50,036 bases of DNA from an uncultured Fidelibacterota bacterium (GTDB lineage: Bacteria; Fidelibacterota; Marinisomatia; Marinisomatales; UBA1611): positions 1 to 50,036 of the forward strand of contig CALCSS010000042.1 in assembly GCA_937893835.1 (NCBI GenBank). The letters are read 5' to 3'. Of the stretch, positions 14,121 through 23,190 are shown piece after piece. The translations under genes were made by a program, and so were the position numbers. Positions within the stretch are counted from its first letter, which is position 1; every line of letters begins with the position of its first letter. The notes beneath the pieces were generated by a model. It did no database searches and was not told where the DNA came from. It saw nothing but the letters and a program-made list of their open reading frames with translations.

Positions 14121-14885
14121 TTGAAAACCTTTGGTCCTGAGTTTCTGGGGTCGCTAACACCGCGTCCATACTATTGGAGGTATCTATTAACCTATGTTGC
14201 GCTCCTAATGGGCTCTACGTTGGCACGCATAAAAATTAAAGGTCGCCAAAACCTACCCCAAAGAGGGCCGTATGTTTTGGCGTGTAACCACTTTAGTGAT
14301 TATGACCCTCTTTTTTTGAGTTATGCAATTAGAAAACCTATAAGCTTTATTGCTGCAAGTGACCAAGAGGTCGAGTGGATGTTTGCTTGGGCCCCATACA
14401 TATACGGATGGATACCAGTTGATAGGAAAAGGCTTTCTCCATCTACCATTAAACGATCCCTGGCGGCTTTAAAGAGCGGACACGTTCTTGGAATCTTTCC
14501 TGATGGAGGTGTCAGCTACAATCTATTAAACAAACCAAAAAACGGAGCTGTGTTTTTATCAACCCTAGGCAATGCGCCAATTGTTCCAATATCTATATAC
14601 GGTGCTGAAAGAGCTTGGGAGGGAGCGTTCAGGGGTATACGGTCCCGTGTATGTATTAATATAGGTAAACCGTTTGGCCCACATAAGATAGCGAGTGATA
14701 AAAAAGGCAAAGAAGCTCAATTGGAAGTAATTGGCCATGAAATGATGTGTAGGATAGCATCTTTGTTACCAATAAACAGGCAAGGACATTTCAAAAACGA
14801 CAGAACCATAAGAGACCACCAAAAAAACAATAGACTCGTTCCAGACCACCACTATTTTTTTAAAAAAAGACCAGAACAGCCTTAG
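14121..14885 (+). CDS. 1-acyl-sn-glycerol-3-phosphate acyltransferase-like (PlsC family)
   Basis: NHFSDYDPLF (H-x4-D type motif), GIFPDGGVS; TTG start. Confidence 0.8.
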   Translation: MKTFGPEFLGSLTPRPYYWRYLLTYVALLMGSTLARIKIKGRQNLPQRGPYVLACNHFSDYDPLFLSYAIRKPISFIAASDQEVEWMFAWAPYIYGWIPVDRKRLSPSTIKRSLAALKSGHVLGIFPDGGVSYNLLNKPKNGAVFLSTLGNAPIVPISIYGAERAWEGAFRGIRSRVCINIGKPFGPHKIASDKKGKEAQLEVIGHEMMCRIASLLPINRQGHFKNDRTIRDHQKNNRLVPDHHYFFKKRPEQP

Positions 14886-15739
14886 TTTTTAACTGAGTTT
14901 TTGATAATTAGGGCGAGACCTACAAAGATAAAAGGCCCTCCATATATAGCCCCAGGAGGAACACTCTCTAAAAAAAGAAGATACCCCAAAATAGACGCAA
15001 TTATAGGTTCCCCCAGGGGGACCGAAGCAACAGCGGTTGGGGACAGGTATTTAATCGAATAGTTTAACATATTGTGCCCCAAAATAGACGGCACTACCCC
15101 CAAAAACAAAAACCAAGGAATATCAACCTTTTCAAAAGAGAGCAAAGCCCCATCAGAAATAAACACAATGATGGCTATTGTAATGGACGCAACCAAAAAG
15201 ACCGACCGCCCATAAATTGAATTGTCCGTGTTTTCTCGAACCTTGGATGCAAACATATAAGTGACAGCAATACAAAACCCGCTCAATAGAGACAAGATGT
15301 TTCCCCGCGTGCTGTCGTTTCCGTCTCCTACTTCTGAACCTTGAACAACAACCACACCAACAACCGCTATCACCAGACCAATAAAGACAGCCCGCGACAT
15401 CTTTTGCCCACTGAACCACGACAGGGTGGCAGTGAACAATGGCCCAGTGTTGGCAAGTAATGTTGCGCTTGCAACCGACGTGTTTCTAACGCCAATAAAG
15501 AAAAGAGCAAAGTGTAAACCAAGAAAAAATCCGGCAAAAACAATTCGCATGCGATTTTCTTTCTTGATAAGACCCTGTGGTTTTTTTGCACTAAAGACCC
15601 ACAAGATTACACCGGCGGTGAACATTCTCCAAAAGGCCAAGGTAAGAGCAGGGACAAGAGAGACGTGCCTTATAACAAGAGATGTTGAGCTTACAGACAC
15701 CAATGCCAAAAAAAGAACCAAATAGATCCTTGAGGGCAT
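14882..15739 (-). CDS. DMT superfamily transporter (EamA)
   Basis: 285 aa, about 10 hydrophobic segments, duplicated EamA-like pattern (PLGEPIIASILGYLLFLE). Confidence 0.85.
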   Translation of the reverse strand: MPSRIYLVLFLALVSVSSTSLVIRHVSLVPALTLAFWRMFTAGVILWVFSAKKPQGLIKKENRMRIVFAGFFLGLHFALFFIGVRNTSVASATLLANTGPLFTATLSWFSGQKMSRAVFIGLVIAVVGVVVVQGSEVGDGNDSTRGNILSLLSGFCIAVTYMFASKVRENTDNSIYGRSVFLVASITIAIIVFISDGALLSFEKVDIPWFLFLGVVPSILGHNMLNYSIKYLSPTAVASVPLGEPIIASILGYLLFLESVPPGAIYGGPFIFVGLALIIKNSVKN

Positions 15740-15741
15740 AA

Positions 15742-17142
15742 CTATTGAAAGTCGTTTATGATCGAGGCTATACAGCAGGTAAGTTTTTTTGCATAGGGTA
15801 TGTGTAAAAACTCATTAGGTCCATGTGCATTAGACCCGGGACCCAACACACCGGTTATTACGAATTGTGCATCGGGAAACCTCTCTCCCAACATTGCCAT
15901 GAAGGGAATTGTCCCTCCTTCACTCATTGAACAATCTTGTTCTTCAAAATAATCAAGAGACGCCTTGTTTATGGCCTTTACCAACCAGGCTGAGGTTTCT
16001 GGTGCGCTCCAACCAGAAGCAGCTTCCTCACACTCAACAACAACCGTAGCCTTATGTGGAACATTTTTTGATAGAGCTCTCACAACGACCTCTTGAGCAA
16101 GGTCTTGGTCAACCATTGGAGGTATTCTAATTGATAGTTGTAATTTTGTGTATGGCCTAAGAACATTACCAGCGTTTTCAGAAGGAGGGAGGCCATTCGC
16201 ACCCACAACAGATAGGGCAGGCCGCCACGTTCTGCGCAAAACACCCTCTACCAGGTCATCTGTGGATGGTTCCATATCGTCTTTCCAGGGAAACTCATCG
16301 ACAACCTCCCGACCAAGAATATCAACAAACCTTTCTGTCTCAGATACCCGATAGTCTGGAATGGTTGTGTGTAGTTCATTTAATTTTATTTCTCCCGACC
16401 TCTCATCTTCCAACCTGGAAAGAAGTAGCCTTGCAATTCGAAAAGAGGAAGGTACGTGCCCACTTGCACCCCCAGAATGAACACCTTCTTTTAAAACTCC
16501 AACCTCTAAGGAACAACCAATCAACCCCCTTAGTGAGGTTGTGGTCCAAAATCTTTTATAGTCTCCCGCACCAGAGTCTAGGCATATGACAAGCTCCGGT
16601 TTCCCAATCAAGTCTGAACAAAGTTCAATATAATGAGGCAGGTCAGGTGAACCACTTTCCTCACTAAACTCGATAAGTATCAAAATCCTTGGGGTGTTCA
16701 ATCCTTGATTAAGAAGAGCTTTAATTGCACACATTGATGCGAAGAGAGCATATCCGTCATCTGCGCCACCTCGACCATACAATTTTCCATCTTTTAATAC
16801 TGGGTCCCAAGGTCCAAGACCATTGTTCCAACCTTCCATCTCGGGTTGTTTATCTAGGTGTCCATACATTAAAATATTTCCATCTTTTGTTCCTGCTATG
16901 TCAATAAGTAACAAAGGGGTTTTTTCTGGTGACTCTTTTATTATTAACTCTGCGTTTTTCGGTAAGTGTTCCTCTGCCCATTTCTTTGCCATGTGCAAGA
17001 CCTTGTCCATGTGCCCGTTTTGTTTCCAGTTCACATCAAAGGAGGGAGACTTGTTTGGTATTTTTATATATTCAAACAATGTTGGGATAATGTGTTTTTC
17101 CCAAAAGACACCAACCTGATCAATCAATAGTTTATTATTCAT
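15742..17142 (-). CDS. M20 family metallopeptidase
   Basis: MYGHLDKQPE, GRGGADDGYALFA, EFSEESGSPDL, GPGSNAHGPNEFLHI. Confidence 0.9.
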   Translation of the reverse strand: MNNKLLIDQVGVFWEKHIIPTLFEYIKIPNKSPSFDVNWKQNGHMDKVLHMAKKWAEEHLPKNAELIIKESPEKTPLLLIDIAGTKDGNILMYGHLDKQPEMEGWNNGLGPWDPVLKDGKLYGRGGADDGYALFASMCAIKALLNQGLNTPRILILIEFSEESGSPDLPHYIELCSDLIGKPELVICLDSGAGDYKRFWTTTSLRGLIGCSLEVGVLKEGVHSGGASGHVPSSFRIARLLLSRLEDERSGEIKLNELHTTIPDYRVSETERFVDILGREVVDEFPWKDDMEPSTDDLVEGVLRRTWRPALSVVGANGLPPSENAGNVLRPYTKLQLSIRIPPMVDQDLAQEVVVRALSKNVPHKATVVVECEEAASGWSAPETSAWLVKAINKASLDYFEEQDCSMSEGGTIPFMAMLGERFPDAQFVITGVLGPGSNAHGPNEFLHIPYAKKLTCCIASIINDFQ

Positions 17143-17183
17143 TCAAAAAATCCCTTAGTAAAGTTTTTAATCTACCACTGTGG

Positions 17184-17987
17184 TTATTTTAATTTTAGAG
17201 CAGCGCTCTTATAGATCAGTTTTCCAGATAAAAAGGCATCGTTAACACTACCGCCTTTTATACCGGCATAAGACTCGAAAACACCACGAAACAAACTAGG
17301 CACATATGTATTGATCTGATTTTTTCTTTGTGGTGTCAAGATATTTAATGCGCGCATTATGTTTGGGGTGATATCCTTTTCTTTTTCAATAAAAAACCCT
17401 GCAGATGAAAACGCCTGGAACAACTTCTCCATTTCACTAACTGTCCTAAAATCACACCAAAGAAAGGAGCCCGTTCTTTTTAATACACGAACCACCTCAA
17501 AAAGAAATATATCAATGTTTCCATAGCAGTGAGACGATTCGACATTCAGGACCACATCAAAAACATTGTCTTCAAAAGGGAGGTTTTCAGAATCACCCCG
17601 TACAAATGATAGACCAGGCTCATCAAAAGATGCCACACATAGATCGACAGCATCCGACGAAACGTCTAAACCGGTAACTGTTTTAGTGTTTAAACAAGTT
17701 TGAATATATGAAGCGCCGCCACCGCGGCCAGACCCAACTTCTAATAGGTTTGCATTAGAAAGACCAACCTGGGTTGCCGTATGGTGATATAGTTGAACAG
17801 AGTACCTCTCGTTATCATATGCTTCTGACATCGCCGGGTGGAATCCATCCTCATCATAACCATAATTCATAAACCTGAAGCTGTGTTGGTGGGATTTTCG
17901 TGCAAAAACATTATACCAAAACCGCCAAAACCATTTTTTTGAAGATGGGGAAAACTGTATAAACCATACAATTATCTTTTGTATCAT
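17184..17987 (-). CDS. Class I SAM-dependent methyltransferase
   Basis: NLLEVGSGRGGGASYI, VTGLDVSSDAVDLC, FVRGDSENLPFEDNVFDVVLNVESSHCY. Confidence 0.85.
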   Translation of the reverse strand: MIQKIIVWFIQFSPSSKKWFWRFWYNVFARKSHQHSFRFMNYGYDEDGFHPAMSEAYDNERYSVQLYHHTATQVGLSNANLLEVGSGRGGGASYIQTCLNTKTVTGLDVSSDAVDLCVASFDEPGLSFVRGDSENLPFEDNVFDVVLNVESSHCYGNIDIFLFEVVRVLKRTGSFLWCDFRTVSEMEKLFQAFSSAGFFIEKEKDITPNIMRALNILTPQRKNQINTYVPSLFRGVFESYAGIKGGSVNDAFLSGKLIYKSAALKLK

Positions 17988-17988
17988 T

Positions 17989-18792
17989 TTACCTTGGTTT
18001 TTCTACGACCTGGTCAGCCCTAAACTCCAAATACCATCGCCAAAAGGCTTTAAAAAAAGGTATTAGTCGTAGTTTTAGTGGAATATATGTCGTTCTCCAA
18101 TCCCTTTCGATTGCATATAAGATTTTTTGAACACATCTATCAAGACCCATAGACTCCTTACTGTGTTGTTTTGGTGGTTTTTTGTGTACTTTTCCATCTG
18201 GACCGAATGCATTTCCGCGAAGGTTTGTATCCTTGATCCAGCCCAAGATGGCCTCTAAGACTGTTATTTCTTTTTTATTTTCAATCGCCAAAGTGGATAT
18301 AAAACCATGAAGTGCGTGTTTTGAAGCCGCATAACCAGAATGCCTTGGAAAACCCATAAGGGCTTGACCCGTAGAGCAACTAATGATTTTTCCGCGAGTT
18401 TCTTTTAAGTGAGGCAAGGCAGCATGAACACAGTTCACGGCACCTAAATAATTCACATTTATTAGATCTTTAAAAAAATCAAGGTCAGTTATTTCATCAA
18501 AGCGAGCCCACATGCTTACCCCCGCATTTAACACCAACCCATCAACGCGACCAAAGGCCTCGATAGTTCTGTTTACCATGTGTTGACACTGCTCTAGGAC
18601 CGTTATATCTGTTTGTACAGGAACAGCCTTTCCACCAGAGTCTGTGATATGATTGCAAACCCTTTCGATCTCATCAAGCCTTCGTGCGGCACAGACAACC
18701 ATAGAGCCAGCAACAGATAACTGCCTACAAAGCTCTTCACCGATACCAGAAGAGCCACCCGTTATAATAAAGACCTTGTTTTTTAGAATCAT
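17989..18792 (-). CDS. SDR oxidoreductase, DHRS7B/11beta-HSD-like (candidate acyl/alkyl-DHAP reductase)
   Basis: TGGSSGIG, NAG, YAASKHA active site; ILGWIKDTNLRGNAFGPDGK resembles the DHRS7 group; adjacent to AGPS homolog. Confidence 0.8.
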   Translation of the reverse strand: MILKNKVFIITGGSSGIGEELCRQLSVAGSMVVCAARRLDEIERVCNHITDSGGKAVPVQTDITVLEQCQHMVNRTIEAFGRVDGLVLNAGVSMWARFDEITDLDFFKDLINVNYLGAVNCVHAALPHLKETRGKIISCSTGQALMGFPRHSGYAASKHALHGFISTLAIENKKEITVLEAILGWIKDTNLRGNAFGPDGKVHKKPPKQHSKESMGLDRCVQKILYAIERDWRTTYIPLKLRLIPFFKAFWRWYLEFRADQVVEKPR

Positions 18793-18814
18793 AAAGAAAG
18801 ACCCGGGAAATAAT

Positions 18815-20572
18815 TCAATCTAGCACTATATTGTTTTTTACCCCAAAAATATTATCGGGGTCTTGTGATTTTTTTATTCCCCTAACCATATCTATACTGC
18901 CCTCCGAGATGGTGTCAGACATAAAATCCTTTCTCAATTTTCCCACGCCGTGGTGGTGTGATATTGAGCCCCCGTTCTTTATAAAGTTTTCTCTCATTTT
19001 GTGCTCAATCTTTGTGAATACATCCTCCGGATTTTCAATACCATCAAAACTCATGGCTATGGTGTTATACATACAAACACCAGTGTGATATATTTTTGAT
19101 ATCCGTGATGTAAAAAAAGGTTTTCCCGGCAGACCGTTTTCTTTGTGAAGTTGATTTACTAGTTTAAAGGCCTCTCCTTTAACCTGGTTTATCTTTGACC
19201 AAGGAACCGCTGTTTCCATTGTTTCTCCAAGAATGTTTTGGGTGAATATCAGCTCCCTTATATAGGCTATTACCATTGTTGCAAGATATCCACTTTCTCC
19301 GGTGCTTTCACCCGCAAGGATACCACCATGTTTTTTTGCAAGTATAGTGAGATTGTCTCGTTGGTTTTTTACCTCAGACAGAGACCCCTCTATTTTAAAA
19401 ACAGCTGCTGTAAACCTTTCGGGGTCAACACCTTTTATATTAAAAAGGATGTATTTTTTTAACCGATCCAATGCCCCAGAAAGGCCTTCTTTCTCTTCTT
19501 TTAAGGCGTTTCCAAGTCGAATCTGTAGATTGTCTGCCAGCCTAGCACTTGCCGGAACCATATTGGAATGAAAAAGGTCATACATAAACCGGACCCCCGT
19601 TTCCCAATCGTTGAATATTATAGACTCATAGGCAGAAGACTCTGGTAGTCGATGTATTTTTAGGGTGGCCTTTGTTATAATACCAAGGTTTCCTTCGGAC
19701 CCAAACAATATGTTTTGTGCCTTGATCCCAAAAGAGGACCTTGTGAGTGGTTTTATCTGATTTATTGTACCAACAGGTGTGATCATGGTCAGGTTCTGAA
19801 CGATGTCTTCAATATTTCCATATCGATGTTTTTTCATACCTGCAGCATTGGTGGATATCCACCCACCCACGGTCGAGAATTCATAACTATCAGGTTCGTG
19901 CCCAACGGTAAAGCCTTCTTTGTTTAGCGCCTCTTCTAATGCCTTTCCTGTTATACCAGCCTGAACGGTTGCCATAAGGTTTTCTTCATCTATGGATTCA
20001 ACAGCGTCCATTCTTCTAGTATCAACAGAAACGACCATTCGGCCTTCCTGTTTGGGTGGCCTAAGGGCGTTGGTGACGTTTGTTCCGCCGCCATAAGGAA
20101 TTAGGCAGACGTTGTGTTTTTTTGCAAGTAGGATCAATTTGGTCGTATCGTCCTCACTCTCAATATAGAAAACGAGGTCGGCAAAGGTTTCTAGTTTGTT
20201 ATACAGAACCTTATACACCTCATCGGTAGAGTGTTGTCCGTGGCTGTGTAGTACCCTCTCTTTTTCTTCGTTAGTAAATCGGTCCTTATCAAACACTTCT
20301 TTCAATTCTGCCATAAAGGGCTCATTGATTTTTGGTTTGACAATATGTTTTTTGTCTAATTCTTTAATTTTTGGTTCTAGTTTAAAATCCACCCCAAGTA
20401 TTCCTTCGACAAATGGAATGAAATTAGGAAGCCTCTTTCCGCAAATAGGATATCTGTTTCCTGAGAAAGATACAGACATGTCCTTGTTTATAATGAAACC
20501 TGAATCCCTGTAGCCCCACTTATGGCCCCAGTTAGAGTCGTTGATGCCAAAAAACTTTTCTTTCTTACCCAT
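18815..20572 (-). CDS. FAD-binding alkylglycerone-phosphate synthase-like protein (AGPS)
   Basis: Recalled similarity to human AGPS along its length: IPYGGGTNVTNAL, GHEPDSYEFSTVGGWISTNAAGMKKHRYGNIEDIV, GSEGNLGIITKATLKI, SISHHHGVGKLRKDF. ATG at 20572 preferred over 20584. Confidence 0.92.
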   Translation of the reverse strand: MGKKEKFFGINDSNWGHKWGYRDSGFIINKDMSVSFSGNRYPICGKRLPNFIPFVEGILGVDFKLEPKIKELDKKHIVKPKINEPFMAELKEVFDKDRFTNEEKERVLHSHGQHSTDEVYKVLYNKLETFADLVFYIESEDDTTKLILLAKKHNVCLIPYGGGTNVTNALRPPKQEGRMVVSVDTRRMDAVESIDEENLMATVQAGITGKALEEALNKEGFTVGHEPDSYEFSTVGGWISTNAAGMKKHRYGNIEDIVQNLTMITPVGTINQIKPLTRSSFGIKAQNILFGSEGNLGIITKATLKIHRLPESSAYESIIFNDWETGVRFMYDLFHSNMVPASARLADNLQIRLGNALKEEKEGLSGALDRLKKYILFNIKGVDPERFTAAVFKIEGSLSEVKNQRDNLTILAKKHGGILAGESTGESGYLATMVIAYIRELIFTQNILGETMETAVPWSKINQVKGEAFKLVNQLHKENGLPGKPFFTSRISKIYHTGVCMYNTIAMSFDGIENPEDVFTKIEHKMRENFIKNGGSISHHHGVGKLRKDFMSDTISEGSIDMVRGIKKSQDPDNIFGVKNNIVLD

Positions 20573-21296
20573 ATAGGGTCTCAACCTTTTCTTTTATGCT
20601 TTGTTCAAGCGTTGTGGTCATGTTTTTTATAGCCTCTGCAGCCTCAGTGTCAGAACCGCTGGAGTCTTTCAAAAAGGACCGGGGATAAATTGGTTCAAGA
20701 ATGTAAACATTTATTCTGGTTGGTAGACCAAAAAAAACTCTACCTCGTGGCCAAATTTTATGGGAACCATGAATTACAGCTGGAAGAATAGGCTTGTTCA
20801 GGTTTAAGGAAAAGGTAGCTGCCCCTTTTTTAAAAGGGAGCATTTTACCAGGTTCCCCACGAGTTCCCTCTGGAAACAAAATAAGATTTCGCTGACCATA
20901 GTCCATAAACGCATTACAAAGAGCCTCCGAATCCTGTATTGATAATTTTTTATTTTCATTGGACTGTCGATCAACAGGTATAAGGTTCATAATTGTATTT
21001 ACAGCGCCTCTTTTGATCCAGTTTTCAAACCAATAATCTCGGGCCGCCAACATTCCAAAATGATTGAAACTCTTTTTTGATGCAACAGCAAGAAGAGCAA
21101 CGTCCATATGGCTATTATGGTTACTACAAAAAATAAACGATGAGTCTGGAATATTGTCTCTGCCAAACACCCTTAGGGGGGCGTAGGTTTTAAAAACAAA
21201 TTTTGAATAACAATAAAATAAAGTTTTGAATATCTTATAAAAAAGGGGCTGCTTCCCCAAAAGATATGAATATTTGGGGTTTTGGAGCACGTCCAT
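20565..21296 (-). CDS. PlsC-family glycerol-phosphate/DHAP acyltransferase
   Basis: SNHNSHMDVALL and LILFPEGTRGEPGKMLPFKKGA acyltransferase motifs. Confidence 0.85.
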   Translation of the reverse strand: MDVLQNPKYSYLLGKQPLFYKIFKTLFYCYSKFVFKTYAPLRVFGRDNIPDSSFIFCSNHNSHMDVALLAVASKKSFNHFGMLAARDYWFENWIKRGAVNTIMNLIPVDRQSNENKKLSIQDSEALCNAFMDYGQRNLILFPEGTRGEPGKMLPFKKGAATFSLNLNKPILPAVIHGSHKIWPRGRVFFGLPTRINVYILEPIYPRSFLKDSSGSDTEAAEAIKNMTTTLEQSIKEKVETLYG

Positions 21297-21304
21297 GGTT
21301 TTTT

Positions 21305-22465
21305 TTATTTTCTACCATATTTCATATGAGCATCGGTAAAGGTGTGGGAACCAATGGCACAGACAAGGGAGATATCTAGGGCCAGTGTTGCGCCCGCAAT
21401 TATTTCTGCAAGCTTTCTAGATGAATGTTCACCCTCAGCACACTCCAAGAGTTCTAGGTTCTTTTTTTGCATTTTAAGCCTTGTTCCACCGCCGACCGTT
21501 CCAACCGTAAGAGAGGGGAGTGTAAGTTTGAACTTTAGCGCATCTTCTTTTTTTTCTATTGCAAAATGAGCAATGCTATTTTCTGATGCGCAAGCAGCAT
21601 CTTGACCTGTTGCTAAATAAATAGCGGTAAGAGCATTAGACTCGTGAATTCCGTTACCATGAATTCCAGCCATGCTTGAAATGGTTGGGTAGTACGGCCA
21701 CGCCTCAAAAAGAATGTCCGGGTCCACCTTCAAAACCTTCTTCATAACGCTGTTTTTTATTGTGGTTTCAGCTGCGACTCCATGACCCCGACCCAAGAGC
21801 ATATTTCTAACAGATGGTTTTTTATCGCTGTTTATGTTTGATTCAAGAAAATAATTATATCCAGTTTCTTTACGAATTAACTCACAAGCAACCTTTGCCG
21901 CCAATGTGACCATGTTTTGACCAGCGGCGTTTCCGGTATCCATGACAATATCCAAAACAACATAACCCTGAACAGCATATTGGTCTATTCTTAACACCTT
22001 GCCATAGTTGGTAGTGCTTTCAGCTGCGTCAACAATGGCCTCTTTGTTTTTATTTACCCAGGTTTGAAACTTTGCGCTTTCGTCTAAGTCGTCAAAAATA
22101 AAAACAGGCGCCCTAGAGAGTTCCTGTCTAAAGTGCCTTACCTTTGTTCCACCGCTTAGATAGGAGGCCAACATGCCCCTGTTCATCGACATTGCCAACG
22201 TTCCCTCTAATGTACAAACAGGAACACAATACTCACCCTTGGCGTAAAGACCATCAAGAAGCACTGGGCCAACGACGGCCATTGGAACCTTCATGAACCC
22301 AACATGGTTCTCAATTATGCCTCGTAGTTCTTCTGGGCTATCTTCTGAGGTGTCGCCTAGGTCAATATCGGCATAGCTTTTGACCCACTCAACTCGAGCA
22401 GCCGAGTCTTCAGGTTTAAACCCCCTAGGAATAGAAGAGCTTTTCCCGTTTTTTTCTTCAGTCAT
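21305..22465 (-). CDS. Hydroxymethylglutaryl-CoA reductase-like protein
   Basis: IIENHVGFMKVPMAVVGPVLLDG, TLEGTLAMSMNRG, SDKKPSVRNMLLGRGHGVAAE, ATGQDAACASENS, GGTRLKMQ, C-terminal DAHMKYGR. Confidence 0.85.
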   Translation of the reverse strand: MTEEKNGKSSSIPRGFKPEDSAARVEWVKSYADIDLGDTSEDSPEELRGIIENHVGFMKVPMAVVGPVLLDGLYAKGEYCVPVCTLEGTLAMSMNRGMLASYLSGGTKVRHFRQELSRAPVFIFDDLDESAKFQTWVNKNKEAIVDAAESTTNYGKVLRIDQYAVQGYVVLDIVMDTGNAAGQNMVTLAAKVACELIRKETGYNYFLESNINSDKKPSVRNMLLGRGHGVAAETTIKNSVMKKVLKVDPDILFEAWPYYPTISSMAGIHGNGIHESNALTAIYLATGQDAACASENSIAHFAIEKKEDALKFKLTLPSLTVGTVGGGTRLKMQKKNLELLECAEGEHSSRKLAEIIAGATLALDISLVCAIGSHTFTDAHMKYGRK

Positions 22466-22665
22466 TAATGATCTTTTATTGTGTGTTTTTGGTTATTCGG
22501 TATCGGGGATGGACCCGAGCCATATATTTAATGTCGGTATATCATTGAAATACACGGGAAGGTACAAAGCGTTTTAAATAAAAACACTTAAAAAAAAACA
22601 AATAAAAACCTAATGTTTAAACTCGCATTTAAACACTATATTATCTAATTAGTAATATAAAAAAC

Positions 22666-23190
22666 ATGATACTAAATAAAACAATTGCCCTTGTTCTTTT
22701 TATTGGTCTTGCATATCCGCAGTTTAAACCAAGCTTTGTCAAAAACCCTGAAAAAGAATCAATTTATGAAGCTGATGATGAAAACGATCAGGAAGAAACT
22801 GATGGTAGGTTCAACCATAGGCAAATGTTTTCTGCGATGTTCTCGATACATAAAGGGGCCCCTGTTACCATGTATTCATATACAAACATCTTCAGTTATG
22901 ATGTTCGAGAAGACCTCGTTGCTGACGTTAAAGTACATGGGCGATTTTTAAATAGTGCATACCACGATACCTGGGGAGGGGGCATTTATGGCCAACCTCA
23001 CCTGGCGATGGATGCGGGAATAAAATATTCACCAATGAACAATGGATTATTTGATATTCAGGCAAGAACCTTTCATGATGAGTGGTGGAGCGGACAATCT
23101 ATCTATCTCTCCTTTTTAGGCATACCGATCAAGAGATTATATAAATCAAAATCTTTTGACCATTATTTTGGACCAAACCTTTGGGACTAG
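22666..23190 (+). CDS. Secreted/outer-membrane-associated protein of unknown function
   Basis: 174 aa with N-terminal signal peptide (MILNKTIALVLFIGLAYPQ); no family recognised. Confidence 0.6.
   Translation: MILNKTIALVLFIGLAYPQFKPSFVKNPEKESIYEADDENDQEETDGRFNHRQMFSAMFSIHKGAPVTMYSYTNIFSYDVREDLVADVKVHGRFLNSAYHDTWGGGIYGQPHLAMDAGIKYSPMNNGLFDIQARTFHDEWWSGQSIYLSFLGIPIKRLYKSKSFDHYFGPNLWD

Follow-up and report, generated by a model that had tools for sequence, protein, structure and literature searches.

Background

Several systems related to ether-lipid formation have been described. First, the mammalian peroxisomal pathway proceeds through FAR1/2, GNPAT, alkylglycerone-phosphate synthase (AGPS) and DHRS7B/PexRAP. 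The mechanism of AGPS and the residues at which mutants are affected are known, including R352, Y508 and R447 from mutagenesis of the Dictyostelium enzyme (PMC3509576), and DHRS7B is the mammalian precedent for the reduction of alkyl-dihydroxyacetone phosphate (alkyl-DHAP) (PMC7517302). Second, an operon containing an AGPS gene is known from Myxococcus xanthus (PMC9131029). Third, Grossi et al. (2025) described FcrA, a homologue of HMG-CoA reductase (HMGR) that converts long-chain acyl-CoA to fatty alcohol and does not reduce HMG-CoA; these authors suggested that some FcrA feed ether lipids, and an AGPS gene lies nine genes from the Promineifilum gene Pb-FcrA (PMC11948995). In the Black Sea, AGPS homologues have been counted in 49 of 134 Marinisomatota metagenome-assembled genomes (PMC11868695), and for the Fidelibacter isolate the reported data are restricted to fatty acids (PMC11652737). 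In the present study, we analysed a stretch of 50,036 nucleotides from an uncultured Fidelibacterota bacterium (assembly GCA_937893835.1, contig CALCSS010000042.1), hereafter referred to as the window, in which genes for an HMGR-like protein, a PlsC acyltransferase, an AGPS homologue and a short-chain dehydrogenase/reductase (SDR) follow one another. Judging from the sequence, we consider it highly probable that this operon would provide a self-contained, oxygen-independent route from DHAP and acyl-CoA to 1-O-alkyl-glycerol-3-phosphate. The window genome is 71% complete in 250 contigs, and the locus was compared across 199 sampled genomes from the phylum Neomarinimicrobiota/Fidelibacterota (Marinimicrobia, SAR406), the source genomes being incomplete.

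Results

The first finding concerns the HMGR-like protein. At the human-numbered positions 684, 735 and 862 the window protein carries E, Y and F, where the human enzyme has S684, K735 and L862, and the catalytic residues E559, K691, D767 and H866 are all retained. In proteins of the HMGR type the active site is located at the interface between subunits. The same pattern was observed in 30 of 30 operon proteins, in which position 684 is E or D, position 735 is never K and position 862 is F or W, with the four catalytic residues kept throughout. S, K and L are kept, in contrast, in human, plant and archaeal HMGR and in one Planctomycetota HMGR that served as a control from the same search. S684, a conserved lysine and L862 are the positions reported to differ between HMGR and FcrA, the lysine being printed as human Lys795 (PMC11948995); this is apparently a printing error for Lys735, because a count along the human sequence puts the conserved HMG-binding lysine at 735. 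In the phylogenetic tree, which was built with a small HMGR reference set and left two long-branch rows unplaced, the operon proteins and Chloroflexota FcrA, including that of Promineifilum, were split from canonical HMGR at 100/99. The MEP-pathway gene ispG is also present in the window genome, so isoprenoids can be supplied by this route and HMGR is not needed for them. The alternative that the gene encodes a true HMG-CoA reductase of the mevalonate pathway, with neighbours that form a separate lipid unit, for example for archaeal-like ether lipids, could draw on the annotation-level similarity and the kept catalytic residues. We regard it as extremely improbable, since substitutions at the three HMG-binding positions occur in every operon member whereas the bacterial control keeps them, ispG is present, the homologue occurs only beside AGPS among the 199 genomes and is replaced by a fatty acyl-CoA reductase (FAR) in one of them, and this type of AGPS takes fatty alcohols, not prenyl diphosphates. 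The canonical role was rejected in view of the residues, the tree, ispG and the linkage. The protein is almost certainly FcrA, a predicted HMGR-derived, alcohol-forming fatty acyl-CoA reductase; as such it would allow the operon to supply its own fatty alcohol, which probably comes from this enzyme. The HMGR-like label given in a preliminary description of the locus was correct as to family (Pfam HMG-CoA_red, 317 bits), and the role in fatty alcohol formation, to which the residues and the tree point, had been missed.

Second, the AGPS homologue matched guinea-pig AGPS (4bby) with 455 bits over residues 19-584 and Dictyostelium AGPS with 275 bits, compared with at most 89 bits for lactate dehydrogenase and glycolate oxidase chains (LctD, DLD, glycolate oxidase). 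In guinea-pig numbering, R419, R515, Y578 and the HHH of positions 615-617 are retained, and these residues are conserved in 138-141 of 141 bacterial AGPS homologues. The motifs GHEPDSxEFSTVGGW and SHHHGVGKLRK, noted in the preliminary description, are both present. The tree placed the window protein in a bacterial group with guinea-pig AGPS (support 99/98), apart from Dictyostelium AGPS and from a separate GlpD-linked family. The sole outgroup row of this tree sits on a very long branch, and it is therefore mainly the bit scores that speak against an oxidase. A grouping with lactate or glycolate oxidases, named earlier as an outcome that would count against the proposal, did not occur, and such an identity was rejected on both the scores and the tree. 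These results strongly support a bona fide AGPS, and the synthesis of alkyl-DHAP is predicted.

The separate family comprises four AGPS-like genes (L075-L078, in G133, G189, G067 and G002) with 30% identity, which lie just upstream of a gene for a GlpD-like FAD dehydrogenase, carry HQH instead of HHH in three of four cases and group with Dictyostelium AGPS. They perhaps serve glycerol metabolism rather than ether lipids, and were excluded from the counts of operon-type AGPS. In another genome (G148), the AGPS N-termini on two contigs (L081 and L082) are 90% identical (164/183), which reflects either two operon copies or a strain mixture.

Third, FcrA and AGPS are tightly linked. FcrA was found in 38 of the 199 genomes and AGPS, at 48% identity or more, in 39, with only weak 30%-identity homologues in four further genomes. 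In all 38 FcrA-bearing genomes AGPS is adjacent, and the FcrA homologue occurs nowhere in the sample except beside AGPS (Fisher 4e-40, a value uncorrected for phylogeny or shared ancestry). The order FcrA-PlsC-AGPS-SDR is constant in families f1, f4, f18 and f21 and crosses a class boundary, and in family f5 the first three genes were seen before the contig end. The genes flanking the four-gene block vary by lineage on both sides, and the arrangement is far from chance because the four genes are kept across families and the class boundary while their flanks change. The AGPS of class f18 and of one further genome (G052, locus L089) fall outside the main Marinimicrobia AGPS group, the latter with Latescibacterota, whereas the FcrA of both are of Marinimicrobia type. 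Since the two trees disagree for these lineages, an exchange of single operon genes within a conserved gene order is probable. The linkage also bears on whether the alcohol made by FcrA might enter wax esters or another sink, with AGPS and SDR serving a different reaction. The characterised FcrA does serve wax-ester synthesis (PMC11948995). This explanation is nevertheless highly unlikely, given the fixed gene order that joins FcrA to AGPS, an enzyme with a fatty alcohol as its second substrate, and given that no wax synthase lies in the block, the rest of the genome not having been searched for one.

Fourth, a gene swap was observed at the FcrA position. TS1B10-1 (G108) is the only genome with operon-type AGPS and without FcrA, and its FcrA slot holds a 563-aa protein with the features of a canonical alcohol-forming FAR (PF07993, 219 bits; PF03015, 54 bits; 257 bits against the FAR structure 7eoz). 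In the rest of the 199 genomes PF07993 reaches at most 107 bits, and most matches score like ordinary epimerases. By its sequence, this FAR naturally replaces FcrA. Among genomes of other phyla, a related AGPS is carried by 39, of which 14 were counted with FcrA and 12 with FAR, the overlap being a single genome (p 0.017, likewise uncorrected for phylogeny). The FcrA is clear in 12 of the 14, because Planctomycetota contributed one canonical HMGR and an Acidobacteria bacterium, PL23a_bin.88 (L221), a homologue that fits neither the FcrA type nor the canonical type (I590, F684, E690, R692, T735, F862). A further 14 of the 39 have neither reductase, and other alcohol sources or missing contigs are possible there. 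In Latescibacterota and on a Gemmatimonadota-labelled contig, FAR, a protein of about 650 aa with an HX4D-like motif, AGPS and SDR follow in the same order, and Planktothrix has a PlsC-AGPS-SDR block. The protein of about 650 aa (L173:5694-7730, L176:2098-4038) has no clear Pfam or PDB match; its HQSLFD resembles the HX4D motif of acyltransferases, which makes a divergent DHAP acyltransferase a possible identity. Two labels are doubtful: the Anaerolineae MT_MAG13 loci (L138/L222) lie on short contigs with almost the same AGPS as Marinimicrobia class f18, and Gemmatimonadota RHO2_bin_15 (L176) is a short contig with an AGPS nearly that of Latescibacterota. These contigs are likely mis-binned or mislabelled.

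The assignment of the two remaining enzymes draws more on position. The PlsC-like protein contains the motifs HX4D (NHNSHMD) and FPEGTR, matches the PlsC structure 5kym with 56 bits, and is encoded between FcrA and AGPS in all loci where the sequence allows. Because of this position and the need of the pathway, we favour DHAP as its substrate, a role that seems fairly likely. When it was compared with the acyltransferase regions of multidomain proteins that contain FAR, no signal on the substrate emerged. The competing view is that this protein is an sn-2 acyltransferase acting on 1-alkyl-glycerol-3-phosphate, with acyl-DHAP coming from another enzyme. It is consistent with the small PlsC/LPAAT-type rather than GNPAT-type protein and with the failure to find any GPAT_C protein in the window genome or its family. 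We consider it possible, although doubtful, since the four other PF01553 acyltransferases of the genome could serve sn-2, the operon PlsC is strictly tied to AGPS, DHAP acylation is required ahead of AGPS, and the HX4D-like protein of Latescibacterota also stands between FAR and AGPS. The SDR scored above the cut-off of NCBIfam PRK06181, and its gene comes next after AGPS in nearly all loci. With this position and the DHRS7B precedent, reduction of alkyl-DHAP to alkyl-glycerol-3-phosphate is likely its role.

The nature of the final lipid was also considered. A search for CarF/PEDS1 (PF10520) gave no match in the window genome at its 71% completeness, in its own family f1 or in family f4, which also bears the operon, and for this reason the product of the window organism is more likely a saturated 1-O-alkyl (plasmanyl) lipid than a plasmalogen. 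That the operon makes plasmalogens (vinyl ethers) would fit with the AGPS-type pathways that precede plasmalogens in animals and myxobacteria, and with TS1B10-1, a genome of the same class, in which a 152-bit CarF/PEDS1 homologue (G108:C17:124702-125223, L188) is the sole strong one in the phylum sample. This option is very unlikely for the window, as the absence of PF10520 is family-wide despite the incomplete genome and the operon-bearing family f21 has only weak matches of 47-60 bits. TS1B10-1 itself may make true plasmalogens, because its strong homologue accompanies a FAR-bearing operon. None of the four operon enzymes requires O2 by its known mechanism, unlike PEDS1. The earlier designation as plasmalogen-type is unsupported, PF10520 being undetected in the genome and family, while PlsA/PlsR was not searched for.

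The features of the locus are listed in Table 1. All five open reading frames were recovered as consecutive minus-strand genes where the preliminary description had placed them, in the 5' to 3' order HMGR-like, PlsC, AGPS, SDR and methyltransferase (22465 to 17184), with intergene gaps of 8, -20, 22 and 1 bp from the coordinates. The Pfam scores of the last four proteins were 69 bits (Acyltransferase), 121 and 95 bits (FAD_binding_4 and FAD-oxidase_C), 156 bits (adh_short) and 62 bits (Methyltransf_11), and the Pfam and NCBIfam matches are consistent with the broad labels of the preliminary description. No sigma-70-like site was found on the minus strand in 22466-22665 and no terminator-like site in 16900-22800, which spans the junction between the methyltransferase and M20 genes; both scans are uninformative. 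The M20 peptidase and EamA genes are possibly co-transcribed with the block and lie outside the pathway; they are linked to it only in close relatives.

Table 1. Features of the proposed ether-lipid locus and its surroundings in the window
Feature	Positions	Strand	Product and remarks	Pfam
fcrA (HMGR-like gene)	21305-22465	minus	386 aa, short form without N-terminal Lad domain	PF00368
plsC-like acyltransferase	20565-21296	minus	243 aa; proposed DHAP acyltransferase	PF01553
agps	18815-20584	minus	Alkylglycerone-phosphate (alkyl-DHAP) synthase, 589 aa, TTG start	
Classical SDR	17989-18792	minus	Proposed alkyl-DHAP reductase (DHRS7B/PexRAP role)	
S-adenosylmethionine (SAM) methyltransferase	17184-17987	minus	Mycobacterial lipid O-methyltransferase type; accessory	
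Intergenic region upstream of fcrA	22466-22665	minus	Between divergent genes; presumed promoter region from gene layout	
M20 peptidase and EamA transporter genes	14882-17142	minus	Downstream, co-directional; gaps of 41 and 2 bp	

The functional unit comprises the four genes FcrA-PlsC-AGPS-SDR, and the methyltransferase stands outside the conserved block. Its gene is part of the operon only in the window genome and three close relatives (G000, G157, G140 and G148). A further 30 genomes carry it away from the block, and AGPS is missing from 11 of these. Because of this distribution it is a genus-level accessory add-on, and not the pathway member it had first been taken for. The nearest NCBIfam models, phthiotriol and Mtf2 fatty-acid O-methyltransferases, were both below their cut-offs, and O-methylation of a lipid hydroxyl is for that reason only a guess; nothing useful was found in the literature on O-methylated ether lipids.

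Discussion

Herein, we propose a pathway for the four-gene operon. First, FcrA would use 2 NADPH to turn long-chain acyl-CoA into a fatty alcohol. Second, the PlsC-family enzyme would convert DHAP to acyl-DHAP, and AGPS would then exchange the acyl chain of the latter for this alcohol through an adduct at N5 of oxidised FAD, yielding alkyl-DHAP. Third, the SDR would reduce the ketone of alkyl-DHAP to give 1-alkyl-glycerol-3-phosphate, which could enter the usual synthesis of phospholipids. The window organism would end up with a saturated alkyl-acyl (plasmanyl) lipid, and the methyltransferase may O-methylate a lipid hydroxyl. The sequences show to which families the proteins belong, which catalytic and specificity residues they carry, that their genes are linked in a conserved manner and that FAR has replaced FcrA in one natural case; from them we infer the production of ether lipids as such, as well as the substrates of the PlsC-like protein, the SDR and the methyltransferase. 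For the GNPAT-, AGPS- and DHRS7B-like series under one promoter suggested earlier, the AGPS step is well supported, and the PlsC and SDR steps are plausible.

Several observations weigh against this pathway. The window FcrA is without the N-terminal domain of the one assayed FcrA: the Lad domain (PF25653) was not detected by Pfam in its 386 aa and is present in Promineifilum FcrA (L140), although it occurs in certain FcrA only and hence does not define the family (PMC11948995). Position 735 is Tyr or Phe in some members, whereas Grossi et al. describe the replacement as generally small. The PlsC-like protein could act at sn-2 instead of on DHAP, and PlsY was not found in the 71%-complete genome, which bears on which acyltransferase starts glycerolipid synthesis. 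The best PDB matches of the SDR are unspecific SDRs, in a comparison without a DHRS7B reference, and its sequence assigns no substrate. In addition, deletion of the AGPS gene in M. xanthus lowers ether lipids only slightly (PMC9131029).

A wider scenario can also be drawn, in which the operon would be a self-sufficient, transferable oxygen-independent cassette where an HMGR-derived reductase replaced FAR, ether lipids and not wax esters would be an early role of FcrA, and the genus of the window would use the extra methyltransferase to make O-methylated ether lipids, a bacterial lipid class without previous description; taken together, this seems rather improbable. More directly, the operon turns a published guess on FcrA feeding ether lipids into a specific claim backed by a natural gene swap. 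It offers, in one small operon, a candidate for a complete bacterial pathway leading from DHAP to alkyl-glycerol-3-phosphate, with which ether-lipid production in E. coli is conceivable. It also implies alkyl ether lipids, which are potential biomarkers, in the widespread uncultured marine phylum SAR406, and bacterial "HMG-CoA reductase" annotations adjoining AGPS are better read as fatty alcohol synthesis.

No description of an FcrA-PlsC-AGPS-SDR operon was found in the open literature, subscription journals and preprints being outside the search. The novelty lies in the complete operon, in how strictly it is conserved and in the replacement of FcrA by FAR, the link between FcrA and ether lipids having already been suggested. 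The proposed reactions are the same four as in the mammalian pathway, and AGPS is homologous with its catalytic residues kept. Here, however, an unrelated HMGR-derived FcrA stands for FAR and a PlsC-type for a GNPAT-type acyltransferase, a single operon carries the genes, and PEDS1 was not found. The description of the locus as eukaryote-like in a bacterium carries no novelty of its own, since the M. xanthus operon was known. In that system, MXAN_1676-1674 with ElbD, AGPS is likewise accompanied by an acyltransferase and a reductase of fatty acyl groups (PMC9131029), but it employs a FAR1-like/GNPAT-like fusion and an epimerase/dehydratase-type reductase in place of FcrA, a separate PlsC and a classical SDR. 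The PlsA/PlsR plasmalogen reductase and GeR routes of anaerobes are also oxygen-independent means of bacterial ether-lipid formation; according to the respective papers they reduce an ester of the finished diacyl lipid, whereas the route proposed here starts from DHAP and a fatty alcohol. Finally, the FcrA of Natronomonas and Ca. Promineifilum breve share the pocket substitutions and catalytic residues of the window FcrA (PMC11948995). Compared with the FcrA of Grossi et al., the window protein is short and devoid of the Lad domain, and its linkage to AGPS is direct, conserved and accompanied by a FAR replacement, which makes this operon the strongest genomic evidence that we found for a link between FcrA and ether lipids.

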